A stretch of 32,627 nt of DNA. Source: Desulfuromonadaceae bacterium (GTDB lineage Bacteria > Desulfobacterota > Desulfuromonadia > Desulfuromonadales > JAAYDE01). Shown here piece by piece: positions 2,437 to 22,282 of the stretch (positions are counted from its first letter, which is position 1; each line of letters opens with the position of its first letter). The notes under the pieces are model-generated. The model saw only the letters and a list, made by a program, of their open reading frames with translations. It was not told the origin of the DNA and ran no database searches. A program made the position numbers and the translations under genes. Location: contig JAAZDE010000028.1 of NCBI GenBank assembly GCA_012512925.1, positions 1 through 32,627 of the forward strand, read 5' to 3'.

Positions 2437-2500
2437 AGTGAAATCATTCAATCATCTGTAAATCGATAAATTCTTTTTGAAAAAGACTTCGTTCTATTTT

Positions 2501-2593
2501 TTGACATAAAAAGCAATTTTTTATCGAATACTTAGATTCGAAATTTTCAAATTTGATTTATATATTGACATAAATAAAATAGCGTTTTATTTT
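2501..2593 (+). promoter_or_regulatory. Tandem promoter/operator region of mdh-kor
   Basis: A very AT-rich stretch carries the 10-mer TTGACATAAA twice, at 2501-2510 and 2565-2574, each including a consensus -35. For the downstream copy a weak -10 (TATTTT, 2588-2593) sits 17 nt away. The downstream copy is part of a 29-nt element (2562-2590) that recurs upstream of acs, with inverted arms AAATAAAA (2572-2579) and TTTTATTT (2585-2592). Two further symmetric elements lie between the copies: TCGAAT-6-ATTCGA (2524-2541) and the palindrome TCAAATTTGA (2547-2556). Seen: the repeats and their symmetry. Inferred: a regulated promoter with an operator across the -35/-10 spacer. Confidence 0.5.
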
Positions 2594-2601
2594 TATAAAA
2601 A

Positions 2602-2798
2602 GACCCTGGAACTTCATCTCACTGGTCAGCATCGAAAAGGAAACGCTGATCCTCTGATCATCGTTGGATTCCAGGTCAAAAAGGAAGGTTCTCTCCGTCG
2701 ACTTTCCATGGCAGAAATTGCAATTGATTGATTTGCGGCGCTTCTGACCAAAATAAAGGGGAAACAAGCGTGTCCGTTGCTTCCCCGCGTTCTTTTGG
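2602..2798 (+). promoter_or_regulatory. Structured 5' leader of mdh
   Basis: If transcription starts near 2600, mdh has a leader of about 265 nt. Two foldable units are visible. The first pairs GACCCTGGAA (2602-2611) with TTCCAGGTC (2669-2677), with one bulge, enclosing GGTCAGC (2624-2630) paired with GCTGATC (2645-2651). The second has outer arms CCAAAA (2748-2753) and TTTTGG (2793-2798), middle arms GGGGAA (2758-2763) and TTCCCC (2781-2786), and inner arms CAA (2765-2767) and TTG (2777-2779). I recognise no riboswitch class. No convincing protein gene lies between 2437 and 2864. Confidence 0.35.
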
Positions 2799-2864
2799 AA
2801 AGGCCCGATTTGAAACCTTTTGCAATTTGCTAATCCACATTTCACGTTTTTTCGGAGGGGGATC

Positions 2865-3848
2865 ATGGGCAGAATAGGCAGAGCAAAAATCGCCATCATC
2901 GGCAGCGGCAACATCGGTGGTATTCTGGCTTACCATGCCACGTCGCGAAAGCTCGGCGACATTGTTCTTTATGATATTGTCGAAGGTCGTCCTCAAGGCA
3001 AATCGATCGACATTTCCGCCGCGGCCCGGGAAGACGAATTCGATCTGCGCATCATCGGCACCAACGATTATGCCGACCTCAAGGGTTCCAACATCGTTAT
3101 CATCACCGCCGGCGCCACCCGCAGGCCGGGAATGAGCCGGGCCGACCTGGTCCATATCAACTCCAAGATCATGCTGGATGTCTCGGAAGGGATCAAAAAA
3201 TACGCACCGAATTCCCATATCATCGTGGTATCCAACCCCCTCGACGCCATGGTGACCCTTTGCCAGCGCTTTACCGGCTTTCCCCATCACAAGGTCATGG
3301 GCATGGCCGGAGTCCTCGACTCGGCGCGTTTCGCCACTTTCATCGCCCAGGAACTGGGAATTTCGGTCCGTGATATCAACGCCACGGTCCTGGGCGGGCA
3401 CGGTGACACCATGGTTCCCATCGTCCGTTTTGCCAATGTCAACGGCATTCCCGTTTTCGAACTGCTGGAACGCAAATACAAAGGGGACAAGGTACATGCC
3501 AAAAAAATCATGGACGACCTGGTCGAACGGACCCAGAAAGCCGGCGGCGAGGTAGTCAAACTGCTTAAGGACGGGAGCGCCTTTTTCTCCCCCGCCTCCA
3601 GCATCCTCACTATGGTGGAAGCGATCCTCCAGGACCAGAAACGGCTCATGTCAGCTTCCGTCTATCTGACTGGACAATTTGGGGTATATGGTTATTATGT
3701 GGGGGTTCCCTGCATCATCGGGTCCGAAGGAGTGGAACAGATCGTCGAGTTCGCCATGAACGAGGAAGAAAAGGCGATGTTCGACAAATCGGTTGCCGCC
3801 GTCAAGGAGATCGTCGACAACCTCTGCGACTCGCCTTCCGCCGCTTAA
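2865..3848 (+). CDS. mdh: Malate dehydrogenase (NAD-dependent, LDH-like fold)
   Basis: Oxidises malate to oxaloacetate with NAD+ as a TCA-cycle step. The ATG at 2865 is chosen because CGGAGGGG (2853-2860) lies just upstream and it places the Rossmann motif G13-S-G15-N-I-G18 at the expected position; the open frame extends to 2820 but adds no family sequence. Asp37 at the end of beta-2 fits NAD rather than NADP preference. The substrate loop reads RRPGMSR (86-92); Arg at the position that is Gln in lactate dehydrogenases supports malate. The catalytic His179 lies in [10 protein letters not shown]. The product is 327 aa, normal for this type. It is followed after 80 nt by korD, so the five genes probably form one unit under the promoter region upstream. 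Confidence 0.95.
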
Positions 3849-4142: not shown

Positions 4143-5276
4143 GTGGCCAAAAAAACCGCTTTGATACAGGGAAATGAAGCCTGCGCCCACGCCGCCATCT
4201 ACGCCGGGTGCACCTTTTTCGCCGGTTATCCCATCACCCCGTCTTCAGAAATCGCCGAAGTTCTATCCAAAGAACTGCCCAAAATCGGCGGCAAATTCAT
4301 TCAGATGGAGGACGAAATCGCCGCCATGGCCGCCATCATCGGCGCCTCTCTGTGCGGTCACAAGGTCATGGACGCCTCCTCCGGCCCCGGCATGTCCCTC
4401 AAGCAGGAACTGATCGGCTACGCCTGTATCGCCGAGATTCCCTGCGTCATCGTCAATGTCATGCGCGGCGGCCCTTCCACCGGCATGCCCACCGGTCCCA
4501 GCCAGTCCGACGTGATGCAGGCCCGCTGGGGGACCCACGGCGACCATGCAACCATCGCCGTGGCGCCCGCCTCCTGCCAGGAGATCTTTTCGGAGACGGT
4601 GCGCGCCTTCAATCTTGCCGAAACCTACCGCATGCCGGTGCAGATCCTCATGGATGAAATCGTCGCCCACATGCGGGAGAAGATCGTCTTCCCCGAGCCG
4701 GGGGAACTGGAGATTCTCAATCGTCAGCTGCCCGCCGTATCCCCGGCGGATTACAAGCCCTTCGACACCTCCTTCGGGGATGTCCCCCCCCTGGCGGCCA
4801 TGGGAAGCAATTATCGCTATCACGTCACCGGCCTCAACAAGGCCCCCGACGGCTTCCCCACCACCACGGCGGAACTGGTCGATGCCGAGGAACGGCGCCA
4901 GCTTCGCAAGGTCGAGGCGAATGCGTCAGCTATTGAAAAAAACGAGGAATACCTCGTTGACGATGCCGAAATCATCATCCTGGCCTTCGGGATAACCAGC
5001 CGCTCGGCCCGCTTCGCCGTCGACAACCTTCGCAAGGAGGGGGTGCGCGCCGGGCTGTTCCGTCCCATCACTCTCTGGCCTTTTCCTGAAAAAAGGGTCG
5101 CCGGGTTGGCCGGACAGGTCAAGGCGATAATCGTTCCGGAGATGAATCTGGGCCAACTGATCCATGAAGTGGAACGGGTCGTCAAAGGTTCCTGCAAGTT
5201 GGCCGGCCTCGGACGCGTCGACGGCGAACCGATTACCCCCTACCAGATCATCGACAAGGTCAAGGAGGTTTTATAA
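4143..5276 (+). CDS. korA: 2-oxoglutarate:ferredoxin oxidoreductase, alpha subunit
   Basis: Catalytic-core subunit of the enzyme that converts 2-oxoglutarate, CoA and oxidised ferredoxin to succinyl-CoA, CO2 and reduced ferredoxin. The start is GTG at 4143 with AGGAGG at 4126-4131. The N-terminal pyrimidine-binding domain shows GNEACAHAAIYAGCTFFAGYPITPSSE. The conserved MEDEIAAMAAIIGAS and GPSTGMPTGPSQSD segments are those of KorA-type proteins. The C-terminal domain II runs from about residue 270 (IIILAFGITSRSARFAV). It is 377 aa, the usual length. The stop abuts the korB start directly (TAA then ATG), and the korB SD (AAGGAGG, 5262-5268) lies inside this gene, which suggests translational coupling. 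Confidence 0.94.
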   Translation: MAKKTALIQGNEACAHAAIYAGCTFFAGYPITPSSEIAEVLSKELPKIGGKFIQMEDEIAAMAAIIGASLCGHKVMDASSGPGMSLKQELIGYACIAEIPCVIVNVMRGGPSTGMPTGPSQSDVMQARWGTHGDHATIAVAPASCQEIFSETVRAFNLAETYRMPVQILMDEIVAHMREKIVFPEPGELEILNRQLPAVSPADYKPFDTSFGDVPPLAAMGSNYRYHVTGLNKAPDGFPTTTAELVDAEERRQLRKVEANASAIEKNEEYLVDDAEIIILAFGITSRSARFAVDNLRKEGVRAGLFRPITLWPFPEKRVAGLAGQVKAIIVPEMNLGQLIHEVERVVKGSCKLAGLGRVDGEPITPYQIIDKVKEVL

Positions 5277-6107
5277 ATGGCATTCGATTATGAGAAATAT
5301 ATCCGGCCCGGCAAGCTGCCGCACATCTGGTGTCCCGGCTGTGGCCACGGCATCGTCATGAAGGGGCTGATCCGCGCCATCGACAAGTGCGGCCTAAGCA
5401 AGAACCGCACCGCCATCATCTCCGGCATCGGCTGCGCCAGCAGACTCCCAGGCTATGTCGACTTCAACACCGTCCATACCGCCCACGGCCGGGCCGCGGC
5501 CTTCGCCACCGGCATGAAGATGGCCGACCCCGGCCTGACGGTGCTCTGCGTCGGCGGTGACGGCGACGGCGTGGCCATCGGCGGCAACCACTTCATCCAT
5601 GCCTGCCGCCGCAACATCGACATCACCTACATCATCATGAACAACCACATCTACGGCATGACCGGAGGGCAGTTTTCCCCCTGCACCCCTACCGACGGCT
5701 TTGCCTCGACCACACCCTACGGCAATCCCGACCCCGTTTTCGATATCGCCAAACTGGCCATCGGCGCCGGCGCCACCTTCGTCGCCCGGACCACCGCCTA
5801 TCACGCCAACCAGATCGACAAGATGATCGTGGAAGGGATTCAGCACAAGGGATTTTCGGTCATTGAAATCCTCGACTGCTGCCCCACCTCCTACGGGCGG
5901 CGCAACAAATTCCGCTCCGTGGTCGAGATGATGAAGCAGCATAAAGAACTAGCCGTTCCGGTGACAGCAGCGGCCAAAATGACGCCGGAGGATCTGCAAG
6001 GGAAGATTATCACCGGCATCCTCCACCAGGAAGAGAAGCCGGAATACTGCGAGCAATACGCCCGGCTGATCGACAAGGTTCAGGCGCAAACCGCCGGGAA
6101 GGGATAA
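5277..6107 (+). CDS. korB: 2-oxoglutarate:ferredoxin oxidoreductase, beta (TPP-binding) subunit
   Basis: Binds thiamine diphosphate and Mg2+ and forms the active site with KorA. The protein opens with the conserved WCPGCGHGIVMKGLIRAI, includes SGIGCASRLPGY, and has the TPP/metal motif CVGGDGDGVAIGGNHFIHA followed by NNHIYGMTGGQFSPC. It is 276 aa, standard for beta subunits of this class. The start is directly at the end of korA, with no intergenic base. The many CxxC-type cysteines (CPGCG, GIGCAS, DCCPTSYG) fit an iron-sulphur cluster in this subunit family. Thiamine dependence links it loosely to the ABC importer at 22283-24710 if that imports a thiamine precursor; that link is inference. 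Confidence 0.95.
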   Translation: MAFDYEKYIRPGKLPHIWCPGCGHGIVMKGLIRAIDKCGLSKNRTAIISGIGCASRLPGYVDFNTVHTAHGRAAAFATGMKMADPGLTVLCVGGDGDGVAIGGNHFIHACRRNIDITYIIMNNHIYGMTGGQFSPCTPTDGFASTTPYGNPDPVFDIAKLAIGAGATFVARTTAYHANQIDKMIVEGIQHKGFSVIEILDCCPTSYGRRNKFRSVVEMMKQHKELAVPVTAAAKMTPEDLQGKIITGILHQEEKPEYCEQYARLIDKVQAQTAGKG

Positions 6108-6121
6108 AGGAGAAACGGCAG

Positions 6122-6667
6122 ATGTCACAACGATATGAAATCAGATTCTCTGGAGCCGGCGGACAAGGGTTAATCACCGCCGGTATCATCCTGGCCGAAG
6201 CGGCGGCCATAATCGAAGGAAAACATGCCGTCCAATCCCAAAGCTATGGGCCGGAGGCCCGCGGCGGCGCCTCCAAATCGGAAGTCATCATCGCCGACAG
6301 CCCCATCGATTACCCCAAGGCGACCCAGGTCAACGCCTGCCTGGCCCTTACCCAGGAAGCGGCGGACAAATACGCCCATGGAATCATCGACCAAGGGGTG
6401 CTGCTGATCGACTCAGATCTGGTCAAAAATCCCCCCCAGGGGAATTTCACCCTCTACCGACTCCCCATAATCCACACCGCCAAGGTGGAAATCGGCCGGG
6501 AAATCGTCGCCAACGTGGTGGCGCTGGGGGCCATGGTCGCCCTGACCGGCGTAGTCTCCTTCAAATCGGGGGAGCAGGCGGTTCTGGCCAGGGTTCCGTC
6601 GGCCTTCAAGGAATTGAACCAGAAGGCCTATCGGGTCGGGTTCGAAAAGATGAAGGAAATTCTTTGA
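6122..6667 (+). CDS. korC: 2-oxoglutarate:ferredoxin oxidoreductase, gamma subunit
   Basis: Third core subunit of the Kor complex. Start ATG 6122 with AAGGAG nine bases upstream. The N terminus YEIRFSGAGGQGLITAGIIL carries the GAGGQG motif of gamma subunits, followed by QSYGPEARGGASKSEV, also diagnostic. It is 181 aa and intact. It closes the mdh-kor cluster: the next gene, fbp, is convergent, and a strong hairpin at 6696-6727 lies between them. With this gene all four subunits are present, so the complex should be functional as encoded. Confidence 0.94.
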   Translation: MSQRYEIRFSGAGGQGLITAGIILAEAAAIIEGKHAVQSQSYGPEARGGASKSEVIIADSPIDYPKATQVNACLALTQEAADKYAHGIIDQGVLLIDSDLVKNPPQGNFTLYRLPIIHTAKVEIGREIVANVVALGAMVALTGVVSFKSGEQAVLARVPSAFKELNQKAYRVGFEKMKEIL

Positions 6668-8335: not shown

Positions 8336-8357
8336 TAAAAGGATTATTTTATTTATG
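8336..8357 (-). promoter_or_regulatory. Copy of the shared AT-rich box upstream of a lipoprotein gene
   Basis: Read on the minus strand this site is CATAAATAAAATA followed by ATCC and TTTTA. The first 13 bases are identical to the mdh element (2569-2581), and the TTTTA arm is displaced by one base. It lies 60 nt before the start of the lipoprotein gene at 8417. A TATAAA sequence overlaps it at 8335-8340. Confidence 0.35.
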
Positions 8358-12259: not shown

Positions 12260-13003
12260 TCAGGTCCGCGTGAGTTCGGTGAGATAGCGCCAGTACCGGA
12301 CCGGCATGAACTGGCGCTGCAATGTCGGATTACGGCGACCCTCCACGGCGATTCGCCGGTGATAGTTTCGCCAGCATTCCTGAAAAAAGTTTTCCCGGTC
12401 CGAAACCGCCGGGTTTTCCACCTTCTGGTCCAGAACCGCCGGAACGAATTCCCTCCCGTCCCAGAAAATCCCCAAATCCCGGCGACGATCATGGATCAGC
12501 CAGCGTTCCTTCCCCATTCGTCGGGCGAAATGGGGGGCCAGGGCGGCGGCGATATTGTAATCGGGTTCAAAGGGGGCGTAAAAACTGCCGTCGGCCAATT
12601 GGCGGAAACGGAGCAGACCGGTGAAGCGATGCGCTTCGTGGGCGACGCGGCGCGCGGTCCGAACGGCTTCCGCCACCACGGGATGAGTCAGCCAGCCCCC
12701 AATATCCTTGCCCTGTTCCATAGTGACACGGATATAGTCGCGAATCAGCCTCTCCCGCGGCGCCGTATCGGCCAGAAAAAGCAGCAGAAGAAGGCGCAGA
12801 CCTCTTTTCCCCGCGTAACAGTGGAAATCGGTCAACAGCGCCCGGGCAGCCTCTTCGCTGGTCGCCACCCTGTCACCGCCGAAAAGCAGCTCTTCGGAGC
12901 CTTCGACAGGAAGGATCTCCCCGCCCTTCGCCCCCTTCTCCAGAACCAGCTTGACGGCGGTCAGCATCCCTTCGAAGCTGCCGTCGTAAACTAGCGGAGT
13001 CAT
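12260..13003 (-). CDS. DUF4130 protein, partner of radical SAM nucleic-acid repair candidate
   Basis: A 247-residue protein of the DUF4130 type, a family that accompanies a helix-hairpin-helix radical SAM protein and has been labelled a probable DNA metabolism protein. Visible landmarks are the N-terminal YDGSFEGMLTAV, the mid-region VRTARRVAHEAHRFTGLLRF, and SFYAPFEPDYNIAAALAPHF followed by ERWLIHDRRRDLGIFWDG. In some genomes this domain is fused to a uracil-DNA-glycosylase domain; here it stands alone. Its ATG overlaps the stop of the radical SAM gene (ATGA), so the two are translationally coupled. The enzymatic role is not established. Confidence 0.85.
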   Translation of the reverse strand: MTPLVYDGSFEGMLTAVKLVLEKGAKGGEILPVEGSEELLFGGDRVATSEEAARALLTDFHCYAGKRGLRLLLLLFLADTAPRERLIRDYIRVTMEQGKDIGGWLTHPVVAEAVRTARRVAHEAHRFTGLLRFRQLADGSFYAPFEPDYNIAAALAPHFARRMGKERWLIHDRRRDLGIFWDGREFVPAVLDQKVENPAVSDRENFFQECWRNYHRRIAVEGRRNPTLQRQFMPVRYWRYLTELTRT

Positions 13004-14253
13004 CCGAACAGCCTCAACTGGTTGGCGTCGGATGCCCGCTTCGATCCGGTCAGCAGTTCCCGGCGGACCCTTTCGGGGGAGTGATTGAATTTCGGCTCGG
13101 CGCCGTAACGTCCCCCACAGGTGATGAAGAAGCGGGCCCTTTTGAGCACCACTCCGATACGCTGAAGATCTTCCACAGCGAGCCGGGCGTACCTCCGCGC
13201 CGCAATAATCCGTTTCGCCGAGGTCACCCCGATCCCCGGCACCCGCAACAGCGTTTCATAGCCGGCGGAATGGATCTCCACCGGAAAGGAAGCCGGATGG
13301 CGCAAAGCCCAGGCGGTTTTGGGGTCGAAGTGCTCGTCCAGATCGGGCTGGGAAGGGGTCAGGATCTCCTCGGCACGGAAACCATAATAGCGCATCAGCC
13401 AATCGGCCTGATAGAGCCGATGCTCACGAAGTGCCGGCGGCTGGCGCAAGGCCGGTAGACGACTGTCCGCGTTGACCGGTACATAGGCGGAATAATAGAC
13501 CCGTTTGAGACTGAATCGGTTGTAAAGGGATTCGGTCAGATGAAGAATCTGCAGATCGCTTTCCGGAGTGGCCCCGATCACCAGCTGGCTACTCTGCCCG
13601 GCAGGCGCGAAGGAAGGCGCCTTGCGGAATTTTTTCCGCTCGGCCCGGTTTTCCACAATCCCCTCGCCAATCTGGCGCATCGGATGCAAAATGGCCTGAC
13701 GGGTCTTGTCCGGAGCCAGCAGTTTCAACGACTTTTCGGTGGGCAACTCGATATTGACGCTCAGCCGATCAGCCGCCAGACCGGCGCGGCGGATCAGGTT
13801 CGGATCCGCCCCCGGGATCGCCTTGAGATGGATGTAACCGTTGAAACGGTGGCGAAAACGCAAGGTTTCCGCCACTTTGGCCAGGCATTCCATGGTATCG
13901 TCGGGGCTGCGCCAGATGCCGGAGCTGAGAAACAGCCCCTCGATGTAGTTTCTTTTATAAAATTCCAGGGTCAGCTCCGCCACTTCATCGACGGTGAAAG
14001 TCGCCCGGGGAATGTCGTTGCTGCGTCGATTGAGGCAAAAAGCGCAGTCGTAGATGCAGACATTGGAAAAGAGAATTTTAAGCAAAGAAATGCAACGGCC
14101 GTCCTCTGACCAGCTGTGGCAGCACCCGGCCACGGCAGCTGAACCGATCCCTGACGGAGATCCGCGACGGCGGCTGCCGCTGGACGAACAGGAGACATCG
14201 TACTTGGCCGAAGCGGCCAGAATGTCGAGTTTCTGTGCGGTATTCAGGAACAT
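13000..14253 (-). CDS. Radical SAM protein, putative DNA modification/repair
   Basis: A 417-residue radical SAM enzyme of the class annotated as putative DNA modification or repair protein. The cluster motif CIYDCAFC gives Cys66, Cys70 and Cys73 (CX3CX2C). The N terminus QKLDILAASAKYDVSCSSSG is characteristic of this family, with additional cysteines (Cys44, Cys45, Cys54) before the core. Near the C terminus a helix-hairpin-helix segment, LLRVPGIGVTSAKRIIAARR, suggests nucleic-acid binding. The last bases overlap the DUF4130 start. The substrate is unknown. The start ATG 14253 has no SD; instead an AT-rich box like that of mdh abuts it, which may mean weak or regulated translation. Confidence 0.88.
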   Translation of the reverse strand: MFLNTAQKLDILAASAKYDVSCSSSGSRRRGSPSGIGSAAVAGCCHSWSEDGRCISLLKILFSNVCIYDCAFCLNRRSNDIPRATFTVDEVAELTLEFYKRNYIEGLFLSSGIWRSPDDTMECLAKVAETLRFRHRFNGYIHLKAIPGADPNLIRRAGLAADRLSVNIELPTEKSLKLLAPDKTRQAILHPMRQIGEGIVENRAERKKFRKAPSFAPAGQSSQLVIGATPESDLQILHLTESLYNRFSLKRVYYSAYVPVNADSRLPALRQPPALREHRLYQADWLMRYYGFRAEEILTPSQPDLDEHFDPKTAWALRHPASFPVEIHSAGYETLLRVPGIGVTSAKRIIAARRYARLAVEDLQRIGVVLKRARFFITCGGRYGAEPKFNHSPERVRRELLTGSKRASDANQLRLFG

Positions 14254-14271
14254 AAATAAAATGCCGTTTTA
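14251..14271 (+). promoter_or_regulatory. Copy of the shared AT-rich box at the radical SAM start codon
   Basis: The sequence CATAAATAAAAT-GC-CGTTTTA matches mdh positions 2569-2589 at 19 of 21 bases. Its inner symmetric arms are TAAAA and TTTTA around TGCCG. The first three bases are the complement of the radical SAM ATG, so the box occupies the region where that gene's SD would be. Confidence 0.35.
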
Positions 14272-14423
14272 AAAATGCAAGATACTCTTTCCATTATCAT
14301 TTTACCAACTTTTTGACAAGATGAAAAAATCCGCCGGGGAGCGGCGGCTGAAAAATTTTCCATGATCTTGCGGCTAATCCCTGGATGCTGTCAATAGGCG
14401 GTTTCCTTATGAGCCACTTCTGA

Positions 14424-20085: not shown

Positions 20086-21978
20086 CTATTCTTCCAGAGT
20101 GCTCAGATTGCCGGGGTCGATTCCCAGCGCCTTCGCCTTGAGAACCCGGCGCATGATCTTGCCGCTCCGTGTTTTGGGAAGGGAGGAAACGAACTCGATC
20201 TGTTCCGGCCGGGCGATCGGCCCAACCTCATGGCCGACATGCTGGCGAAGCTCCTCGGCCAACTGGGCGGTCCCTTCGACCCCCTCCTTAAGGATAACGA
20301 AGCAATGGATGGCGTTCCCCTTGACATCGTGGGGGAGACCTATGGCCGCGGCTTCGGCAACGGAGGTGTGGCTGACCAGGGCGCTTTCGATTTCCGCGGT
20401 GCCGAGACGATAGCCGGACACCTTGATGACGTCGTCGACGCGCCCGATGATCCAGTAATAACCGTCTTCGTCACGGCGGGCCGAGTCTCCCGTCAGATAG
20501 TAGCCGGGATAACGGCTCCAGTACTGGTTGACGTAGCGATCAGGATCGTTGTAGATGGTGCGCATCATCGACGGCCAGGGGCGTTTGATGATCAGGAACC
20601 CTTCCTCATTGGGTTTCACCGACTCACCGTCTTCGTTGACGATATCCATGATCAGTCCGGGGAAAGGCCGGGTGCCGGAACCGGGCTTGAGAGGAACACA
20701 TGGCATCGGGGTGATCATAAACATGCCGGTTTCGGTCTGCCACCAGGTGTCCATGATCGGACACTCGCCGCGTCCGATGACACGATGATACCACTTCCAC
20801 GCTTCCGGATTGATCGGCTCCCCGACCGTTCCCAGAAGCCGCAGGGAAGAGAGGTCGTGGCGTTGCGGCCAGGCGTCCCCATACTTCATCAGGCCGCGGA
20901 TGGCGGTCGGAGCGGTGTAGAGGATGTTGATCCCGTATTTCTCGATCAGCTGCCACCAGCGATTGGGATAGGGATGAGTCGGAGCGCCTTCGTACATGAA
21001 AGAGGTGACGCCGGTCAGCAGCGGTCCATAGACGATGTAACTGTGGCCGGTGATCCAGCCAGGATCGGCGGCGCACCAGAAACGGTCTTCCTCATGGATA
21101 TCAAAGACATATTTGAGGGAGGTGTAGGTACCCACCATATAGCCGCCATGGGTATGGAGGATCGCCTTCGGCTTGCCCGTGGTTCCCGAGGTGTAGAGCA
21201 GGAACAGCGGCGTCTCGGCATCGAGCACTTCCGCTTCGCAGCCCTGATTGCCCATCGGCAGGGAGCTGAGTTCGTGATACCAGTAATCGCGGCCGGCCTC
21301 CATGTTGATCTCGTGGCCGGTCCTTCTCACCACCACCACGTGTTCCACGGTGGCCGCCCGCATCAGGGCCTCATCGGCAATCTTCTTGAGATTGACGATC
21401 TTGCCGCGTACATAGGAGCCGTCGGAAACGATCAGCACCTTCGATTTGCTGTCTTCAAGCCGCTCATGGAGCGCCTCGACGGAAAACCCCCCGAAAACCA
21501 CCGAATGGATGGCCCCCAGGCGGGCGCAGGCCAGCATGGCGAAAACCAGTTCCGGAACGCGCCCCATGTAGATAGTGACCCGGTCTCCCTTGACCACCCC
21601 CATGCTCTTCAGGATATTGGCGAACTTACAGACCTGCTTGTGCAGAAGATAGTAGGAATAGGACTGGAAATCGCCATTCTCTCCTTCCCAGAACAACGCC
21701 AGCTTATTCCGTCGCCAGGTGCTGAGATGGACGTCGAGGCAGTTGTAGGAGATGTTGGTGGTGGCGCCGGTAAACCATTTGTAAAAAGGCTTGTTGGATT
21801 CATCGAGGACCTTGTCCCACTTCTTGAACCAATGAAGCTTTTCCGCTTCGGCCGCCCAAAACCCCTCGTAATCCTCTTGAGCCCTTTTGCTCATTTCATC
21901 CCAATCTTTGACGTTGGCTTTTTCAACCACCGCTTTGGAGGGAAGGAACACTTCTCCGGACAACTTCTTTTGGGCCAT
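20086..21978 (-). CDS. acs: Acetyl-CoA synthetase
   Basis: Activates acetate with ATP and CoA to acetyl-CoA. It is an ANL-family adenylating enzyme with the P-loop YTSGTTGKPKAILHTHGG, the adenine-site motif DTWWQTETG, the hinge region GRVDDVIKVSGYRLGTAEIE and the C-terminal catalytic, acetylatable Lys in PKTRSGKIMRR. At 630 aa it is near the family norm. The start at ATG 21978 is preferred: AGGAGG lies six bases before it, while the upstream ATG at 21984 touches the SD with no spacing. It is transcribed alone, with an AT-rich regulatory region upstream and the terminator at 20017-20048. Confidence 0.95.
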   Translation of the reverse strand: MAQKKLSGEVFLPSKAVVEKANVKDWDEMSKRAQEDYEGFWAAEAEKLHWFKKWDKVLDESNKPFYKWFTGATTNISYNCLDVHLSTWRRNKLALFWEGENGDFQSYSYYLLHKQVCKFANILKSMGVVKGDRVTIYMGRVPELVFAMLACARLGAIHSVVFGGFSVEALHERLEDSKSKVLIVSDGSYVRGKIVNLKKIADEALMRAATVEHVVVVRRTGHEINMEAGRDYWYHELSSLPMGNQGCEAEVLDAETPLFLLYTSGTTGKPKAILHTHGGYMVGTYTSLKYVFDIHEEDRFWCAADPGWITGHSYIVYGPLLTGVTSFMYEGAPTHPYPNRWWQLIEKYGINILYTAPTAIRGLMKYGDAWPQRHDLSSLRLLGTVGEPINPEAWKWYHRVIGRGECPIMDTWWQTETGMFMITPMPCVPLKPGSGTRPFPGLIMDIVNEDGESVKPNEEGFLIIKRPWPSMMRTIYNDPDRYVNQYWSRYPGYYLTGDSARRDEDGYYWIIGRVDDVIKVSGYRLGTAEIESALVSHTSVAEAAAIGLPHDVKGNAIHCFVILKEGVEGTAQLAEELRQHVGHEVGPIARPEQIEFVSSLPKTRSGKIMRRVLKAKALGIDPGNLSTLEE

Positions 21979-22046
21979 GATCATCCTCCTTTTGGTTTTG
22001 TTTTACAACGGCGTTAAATTTTATGCATAACTGGCATAACAATCTG

Positions 22047-22155
22047 TTTTAAAATGAAAATTTATCATTTTAAAAAATTTTTCAAACGCTTTTTCGGGTT
22101 TTTTTAAAAGCGCTATTTTTTGAAATTTAAAATACTATTTTATTTTTGTCAATAT
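22047..22155 (-). promoter_or_regulatory. acs promoter/operator region with shared box
   Basis: The roughly 300 nt between acs and the ABC importer hold no gene. On the minus strand 22155-22127 matches the mdh element (2562-2590) at 25 of 29 positions, including a consensus TTGACA (22152-22147). The palindrome TAAAATAGTATTTTA is centred in it. A second, related box, AAAATAGCGCTTTTA, is at 22119-22105. A third element is a perfect 11-bp inverted repeat (22047-22057 with 22065-22075, 7-nt spacer), arms TTTTAAAATGA and TCATTTTAAAA. Together these suggest a promoter under one or more repressors or activators. Confidence 0.5.
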
Positions 22156-22221: not shown

Positions 22222-22282
22222 CAATTATTTTCAAAAATTTAAAATTTTATTTTACAGGGGCTGTTTTCGACCCGCCTAAGGA

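Follow-up and report, generated by a model that had tools for sequence, protein, structure and literature searches.

A promoter-embedded palindrome at mdh, acs and sdhC as the predicted operator of an autoregulated IclR-family repressor in a Desulfuromonadaceae bacterium

Introduction

Upstream of two sets of acetate and TCA-cycle genes in a Desulfuromonadaceae bacterium, mdh-kor and acs, stands a very similar short sequence, and the question we address is what this box is and which regulator might read it. The stretch analyzed (the window) is 32,627 nucleotides long and comprises an entire contig (C117) of a 2.6-Mb genome in 213 contigs. The analysis covers where the sites lie, how they sit in their promoters, how far they are conserved and how they relate to iclR promoters. 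Our reading, which we hold with high confidence, is that an autoregulated IclR-family repressor uses this box as its operator and would switch acetate activation along with most of the oxidative TCA cycle.

Results

A box shared by mdh, acs and sdhC

On direct reading, the plus-strand sequence at 2562-2590 on the mdh side (ATATTGACATAAATAAAATAGCGTTTTAT) and the minus-strand sequence at 22155-22127 on the acs side (ATATTGACAAAAATAAAATAGTATTTTAA) were the same at 25 of 29 positions, just as the first-pass annotation of this DNA had it, and a search of the whole window with the mdh-box pattern (up to three mismatches) returned three matches against 0.00 in shuffles. Searching the whole genome with the 25-mer TTGACAWAAATAAAATANYRTTTTA, again with up to three mismatches, we found exactly three matches, each with zero mismatches, and none with the reversed control; the third was at C69:26371, upstream of sdhC, encoding the succinate dehydrogenase/fumarate reductase membrane subunit (Pfam Sdh_cyt). 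Strict sites thus stand at mdh-kor, acs and sdh, and the earlier suggestion that the box is tied to acetate/TCA genes holds with one more locus than it was drawn from. When the mdh and acs upstream regions were aligned with those of relatives, the box appeared as a conserved island amid diverged DNA, at mdh in a genome of the same genus (G001) and at acs in both G001 and a genome of the same family (G002).

The box at iclR genes across the order

A relaxed pattern allowing at most one mismatch matched in 51 of 136 genomes of the order (reversed control, none), and the genes downstream of these loci were mostly of the IclR family, in two related types, an IclR-family regulator being the commonest order-wide. 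To avoid selection by motif, we gathered 80 iclR loci from named genomes, among them Geobacter argillaceus, Malonomonas rubra and Desulfuromusa kysingii, by protein similarity alone. Within ~300 bases upstream of the gene, TTGACANNNATAAAACANNNTTNTAT (up to three mismatches) was present at 72 of the 80 loci versus 0 of 1,600 mononucleotide shuffles; the columns of these promoters comprise an invariant TTGAC, a TARAAC core, TTYTA, and TAWWWT at spacing 17. The regulator's own promoter accordingly carries a palindromic operator that is kept across species.

From this collection we built R1, a sequence-only profile of 47 of the iclR promoter sites with the source genome excluded, and the operator matrix, a symmetric weight matrix from the iclR promoters of other species with a maximum of 25.9. 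Over the 498 kb of the 80 iclR loci most R1 matches fell upstream of iclR, and 127 of the 136 genomes had matches at E<=0.02.

These results bear on HgtR (GSU3364), which the first-pass annotation had raised as a candidate regulator. In Geobacter, HgtR is known to repress central metabolism, with gltA, atpG and nuoA as named targets (PMC7726332), and the targets here, as TCA genes, likewise belong to central metabolism. However, in at least 72 of 80 loci the box is a promoter element of an IclR gene, a different regulator, and neither gltA, atpG nor nuoA is among the annotated R1 matches at E<=0.5 in the source genome (G000), G001 and G002; by this indirect comparison, an HgtR site is a very improbable reading of the box.

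Three further observations concern regulator genes and recR elsewhere in the order. In other families (L045, L047, L062, L233) the promoter of a second IclR paralog (KESYSIQAVENALDVLEAL) holds a variant of the box, TAAAACAGCGTATTA. In three genomes (L263, L265, L266) TAAAACAGCATTTTA occurs ~45 bases before the recR start. Several genomes of genus g16 have the operator in the promoter region of an XRE-cupin regulator gene (L218, L223, L224, L264), which suggests a regulatory cascade.

Promoter anatomy and sites in the window

In form the box is a promoter of sigma-70-like type, TTGACA-17-TAWWWT, whose hexamers are of the TTGACA and TATAAT-like kind and whose spacer holds the predicted palindromic operator TARAAYANYRTTYTA. 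In all four promoters (mdh, acs, sdhC and iclR) the 15-base palindrome lies inside the 17 bases between TTGACA and the -10 hexamer; the TAAAA-5-TTTTA symmetry fills that spacer and runs two bases into the -10. Both the earlier proposal of a regulator site embedded in a promoter and its choice of this inner symmetry as the predicted operator are borne out. The features of the window are as follows.

2565-2593, plus strand: mdh-kor promoter, with TTGACA (2565-2570), a 17-base spacer and TATTTT (2588-2593), in the same register as in 72 iclR promoters
2574-2590, plus strand: predicted IclR operator ATAAAATAGCGTTTTAT in the mdh promoter spacer (R1 18.9 bits; operator matrix 24.3 of 25.9)
2868-3848, plus strand: mdh, malate dehydrogenase (TIGR01763)
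4143-6667, plus strand: korA, korB and korC, 2-oxoglutarate/2-oxoacid:ferredoxin oxidoreductase subunits, downstream of mdh (PRK08659, PRK09628, PRK08537)
13000-14253, minus strand: putative DNA modification/repair radical SAM protein (TIGR03916)
14256-14272, minus strand: predicted IclR operator TTAAAACGGCATTTTAT directly before the radical SAM gene (R1 16.1 bits; operator matrix 20.2)
20086-21984, minus strand: acs, acetate--CoA ligase (TIGR02188)
22124-22152, minus strand: acs promoter, with TTGACA, a 17-base spacer and TAAATT
22127-22143, minus strand: predicted IclR operator ATAAAATAGTATTTTAA in the acs promoter (R1 17.8 bits; operator matrix 21.8)
22239-22255, minus strand: weak palindrome GTAAAATAAAATTTTAA, 112 bases upstream of the acs operator (operator matrix 15.1)

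In Markov copies of the whole window the best operator-matrix score averaged 7.0, with a maximum of 14.6. For the AT-rich gaps, 300 Markov copies gave no score above 17.7, which the mdh, acs and radical SAM sites all surpass. A rival idea is that the box is an AT-rich sigma-70 promoter without a regulator, its likeness between genes coming from promoter constraint. TTGACA-17-TAWWWT is indeed present, but a conserved spacer palindrome is no promoter element, the sites score far above these Markov controls, and the target genes recur across species. Moreover, at the iclR genes of the family the -35 has decayed (TTGCTA, TTGTTA) and the operator has been kept. Of the explanations considered we give this one the least credence, marginally below HgtR.

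The radical SAM site, where 19 of 21 positions (14251-14271) match the box, directly abuts the start of the minus-strand gene. The sister species G001 has an operator at the same place (L230, 22.4), and the radical SAM proteins of the two genomes are 79% identical; the earlier idea that this gene shares the control of mdh and acs stands, as that of a predicted regulon member. Only 2-3 bases separate the operator from the start codon, which leaves no room for a ribosome-binding site, and either the transcript is leaderless or the start is misplaced. A further site, at 8345-8357, had been taken to bring an unknown lipoprotein gene under the same control, and here the proposal fails: the 13 of 13 identical positions cover one half of the box only, the operator matrix gives -30.8, and profile R1 reported no match at the site. 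With its second half-site missing, we rejected it as a chance half-match.

The weak palindrome at 22239-22255 is possibly an auxiliary site for a tetrameric IclR; it had no counterpart in the stretches of G001 and G002 that were aligned, though these may end short of that distance upstream.

On the mdh side, a degenerate TTGACATAAAAAGCAATTTTTTATC lies at 2499-2524 (plus strand), ~66 bases upstream of the mdh box, with a score of only 7.7. The predicted mdh leader (2594-2867, plus strand) is ~270 bases long, and the distance from box to ATG in G001 exceeds 400; no Rfam family was found in the window, the long mdh leader included.

The IclR regulator

The source genome has one IclR of the type common in the order, with 73% identity to it; a second IclR (on contig C41) has only 31%.

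G000:C57:50196-50969: iclR of the source genome (Pfam PF09339, 1e-14; PF01614, 2e-52)

The protein has the N-terminal HTH_IclR and C-terminal IclR_C domains of the family. In its own promoter the operator keeps the register of the other sites in a degenerate form, TTGCTA-AAAG-TAAAAAGTTGTTTTA-TATT, scoring 15.7 of 25.9, a weaker predicted autoregulatory site than elsewhere in the order. Of 80 IclR homologs, 79 share an identical recognition-helix stretch, HKNNVFRLLATLE, and such a near-invariant helix would fit an unchanged operator. A usp gene lies near iclR on the opposite strand in 46 of the 80 loci, and in Geobacter sulfurreducens GSU0515 is a universal stress protein (PMC6964889). Judging by family, distribution and the usp neighbor, this IclR is a probable ortholog of G. 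sulfurreducens GSU0514.

The predicted regulon in the source genome and its relatives

The best R1 loci in the source genome were sdh (18.9 bits), mdh (18.9), an MFS transporter (18.6) and acs (17.8), followed by a NuoE/HndA-like operon (17.6), the radical SAM gene (16.1) and nqrA (13.0), with sucC and aconitase at 10-10.5 bits. The sucC operator is weak by the operator matrix as well (16.2 of 25.9), and that matrix found no operator at the source-genome fumC. Five of the 11 source-genome loci at R1 E<=2.4 were TCA/acetate genes, compared with 0 of 20 weaker palindromes (Fisher p 0.0027); having no TCA genes among them, these 20 were set aside as noise and served as the control.

Similar targets were found in the relatives, where we named genes from translated sequences and from similarity to named source-genome proteins. 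Sites in G001 are at acs, mdh, the radical SAM gene, a NuoE-like gene, nqrA, fumC, an ABC solute-binding gene and an MFS transporter; those in G002 are at acs, sdhC, fumC, sucC, aconitase, iclR, a NuoE-like gene, an ABC gene of the G001 type and an MFS transporter. In the family of the source genome two TRAP solute-binding genes also have operator sites. The source-genome MFS is ~34% identical to those of G001 and G002, so this target is of the same kind in each rather than orthologous. Four targets (nqrA, MFS, fumC and the radical SAM gene) do not show the operator clearly placed in the usual register within the spacer. A third genome of the family, G003, has the IclR (66%) and no R1 site at E<=0.5; sites therefore turn over within the family, as the source-genome fumC also shows.

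One TRAP solute-binding gene type (PLxxWKPxFDPSGAExTYxLSNVSHP) has the operator both in the source genome (G000:C79:17522) and in another family (L254).

With operators at sucC, at aconitase, at fumC in two relatives and at the other loci above, the sites would make up a joint switch for acetate activation and most of the oxidative TCA cycle. At R1 E<=0.02 there are 5-6 sites in each of G000, G001 and G002 and 1-3 in most genomes of other families, in which the second sites we examined were at the IclR paralog, the XRE-cupin regulator, bioB, recR and transporters, with no TCA genes among them. Given the fewer sites and the non-TCA second sites elsewhere, the large TCA regulon is probably particular to the family of the source genome.

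Discussion

We infer from sequence that IclR binds the operator, that it represses, and that a ligand is involved. As the palindrome lies between TTGACA and the -10, a regulator bound there would exclude RNA polymerase; IclR on the spacer palindrome would in this way repress, and a small ligand on its C-terminal domain would relieve the repression. The case for repression draws on the operator position, the IclR_C domain and the example of GSU0514, which represses sucCD in G. sulfurreducens (PMC7894505). IclR might instead bind and activate the TCA promoters, since proteins of this family are activators or repressors, according to Molina-Henares et al. 2006 as cited in PMC7962754, and since, in one proteomic study, growth on hydrogen brought high levels of both GSU0514 and succinyl-CoA synthetase, which speaks against simple repression (PMC7894505). 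We nevertheless regard activation as unlikely, although less so than the other two alternatives, because a protein bound between -35 and -10 normally blocks polymerase and because published work describes GSU0514 as repressing sucCD. Since the box recurs at the regulator's own gene in almost all relatives, one regulator is probably the switch of the central energy pathway of this bacterium.

Among the closest known systems is that of GSU0514, which shares with ours the IclR family, a sucC target and a neighboring usp gene; a probably orthologous type is also found in Geobacteraceae loci with the box upstream (e.g., L145, Geobacter argillaceus). The source-genome sites, in contrast, span acs, mdh-kor, sdh, sucC, aconitase and more, and the binding sequence of GSU0514 is reportedly not apparent elsewhere in the G. 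sulfurreducens genome. The operator of E. coli IclR, the acetate operon repressor, is palindromic, as it is here. That protein also has the IclR fold in common with ours (which matches PDB 1td5 and 2o99) and acetate-related targets; however, its targets are aceBAK and iclR, its operator sequence is unlike the present one, and the source-genome IclR falls below the NCBIfam cut-off for IclR proper (144.5 vs 380 bits). GSU1072, likewise an acetate-related member of the IclR family, controls hydrogenase and acetate transport genes, its targets being Hya, GSU1068 and GSU1070 (PMC7962754). A limited search of the open literature found no IclR TCA regulon in Desulfuromonadales; the predicted operator and regulon would be new, within the well-known kind of IclR repressors.

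As to how the system arose, we lean toward a scenario in which, within this uncultivated family, an ancestral and mainly self-regulating IclR repressor came to serve as the master switch for nearly all of the oxidative TCA cycle (acs, aconitase, mdh-kor, sucCD, sdh and fumarase) and for NADH/quinone electron entry, with a DNA-repair-type radical SAM gene joined to it. The box gives a probable recognition sequence for a conserved central-carbon regulator in Desulfuromonadia, a group of acetate oxidizers and metal reducers, and with this sequence in hand any cultivated member could serve for a test of the regulon. It is also a DNA element that is fixed at its regulator's own gene while the regulon differs greatly between families. 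For the source bacterium, it predicts a set of enzymes that would change together as acetate oxidation turns on or off.
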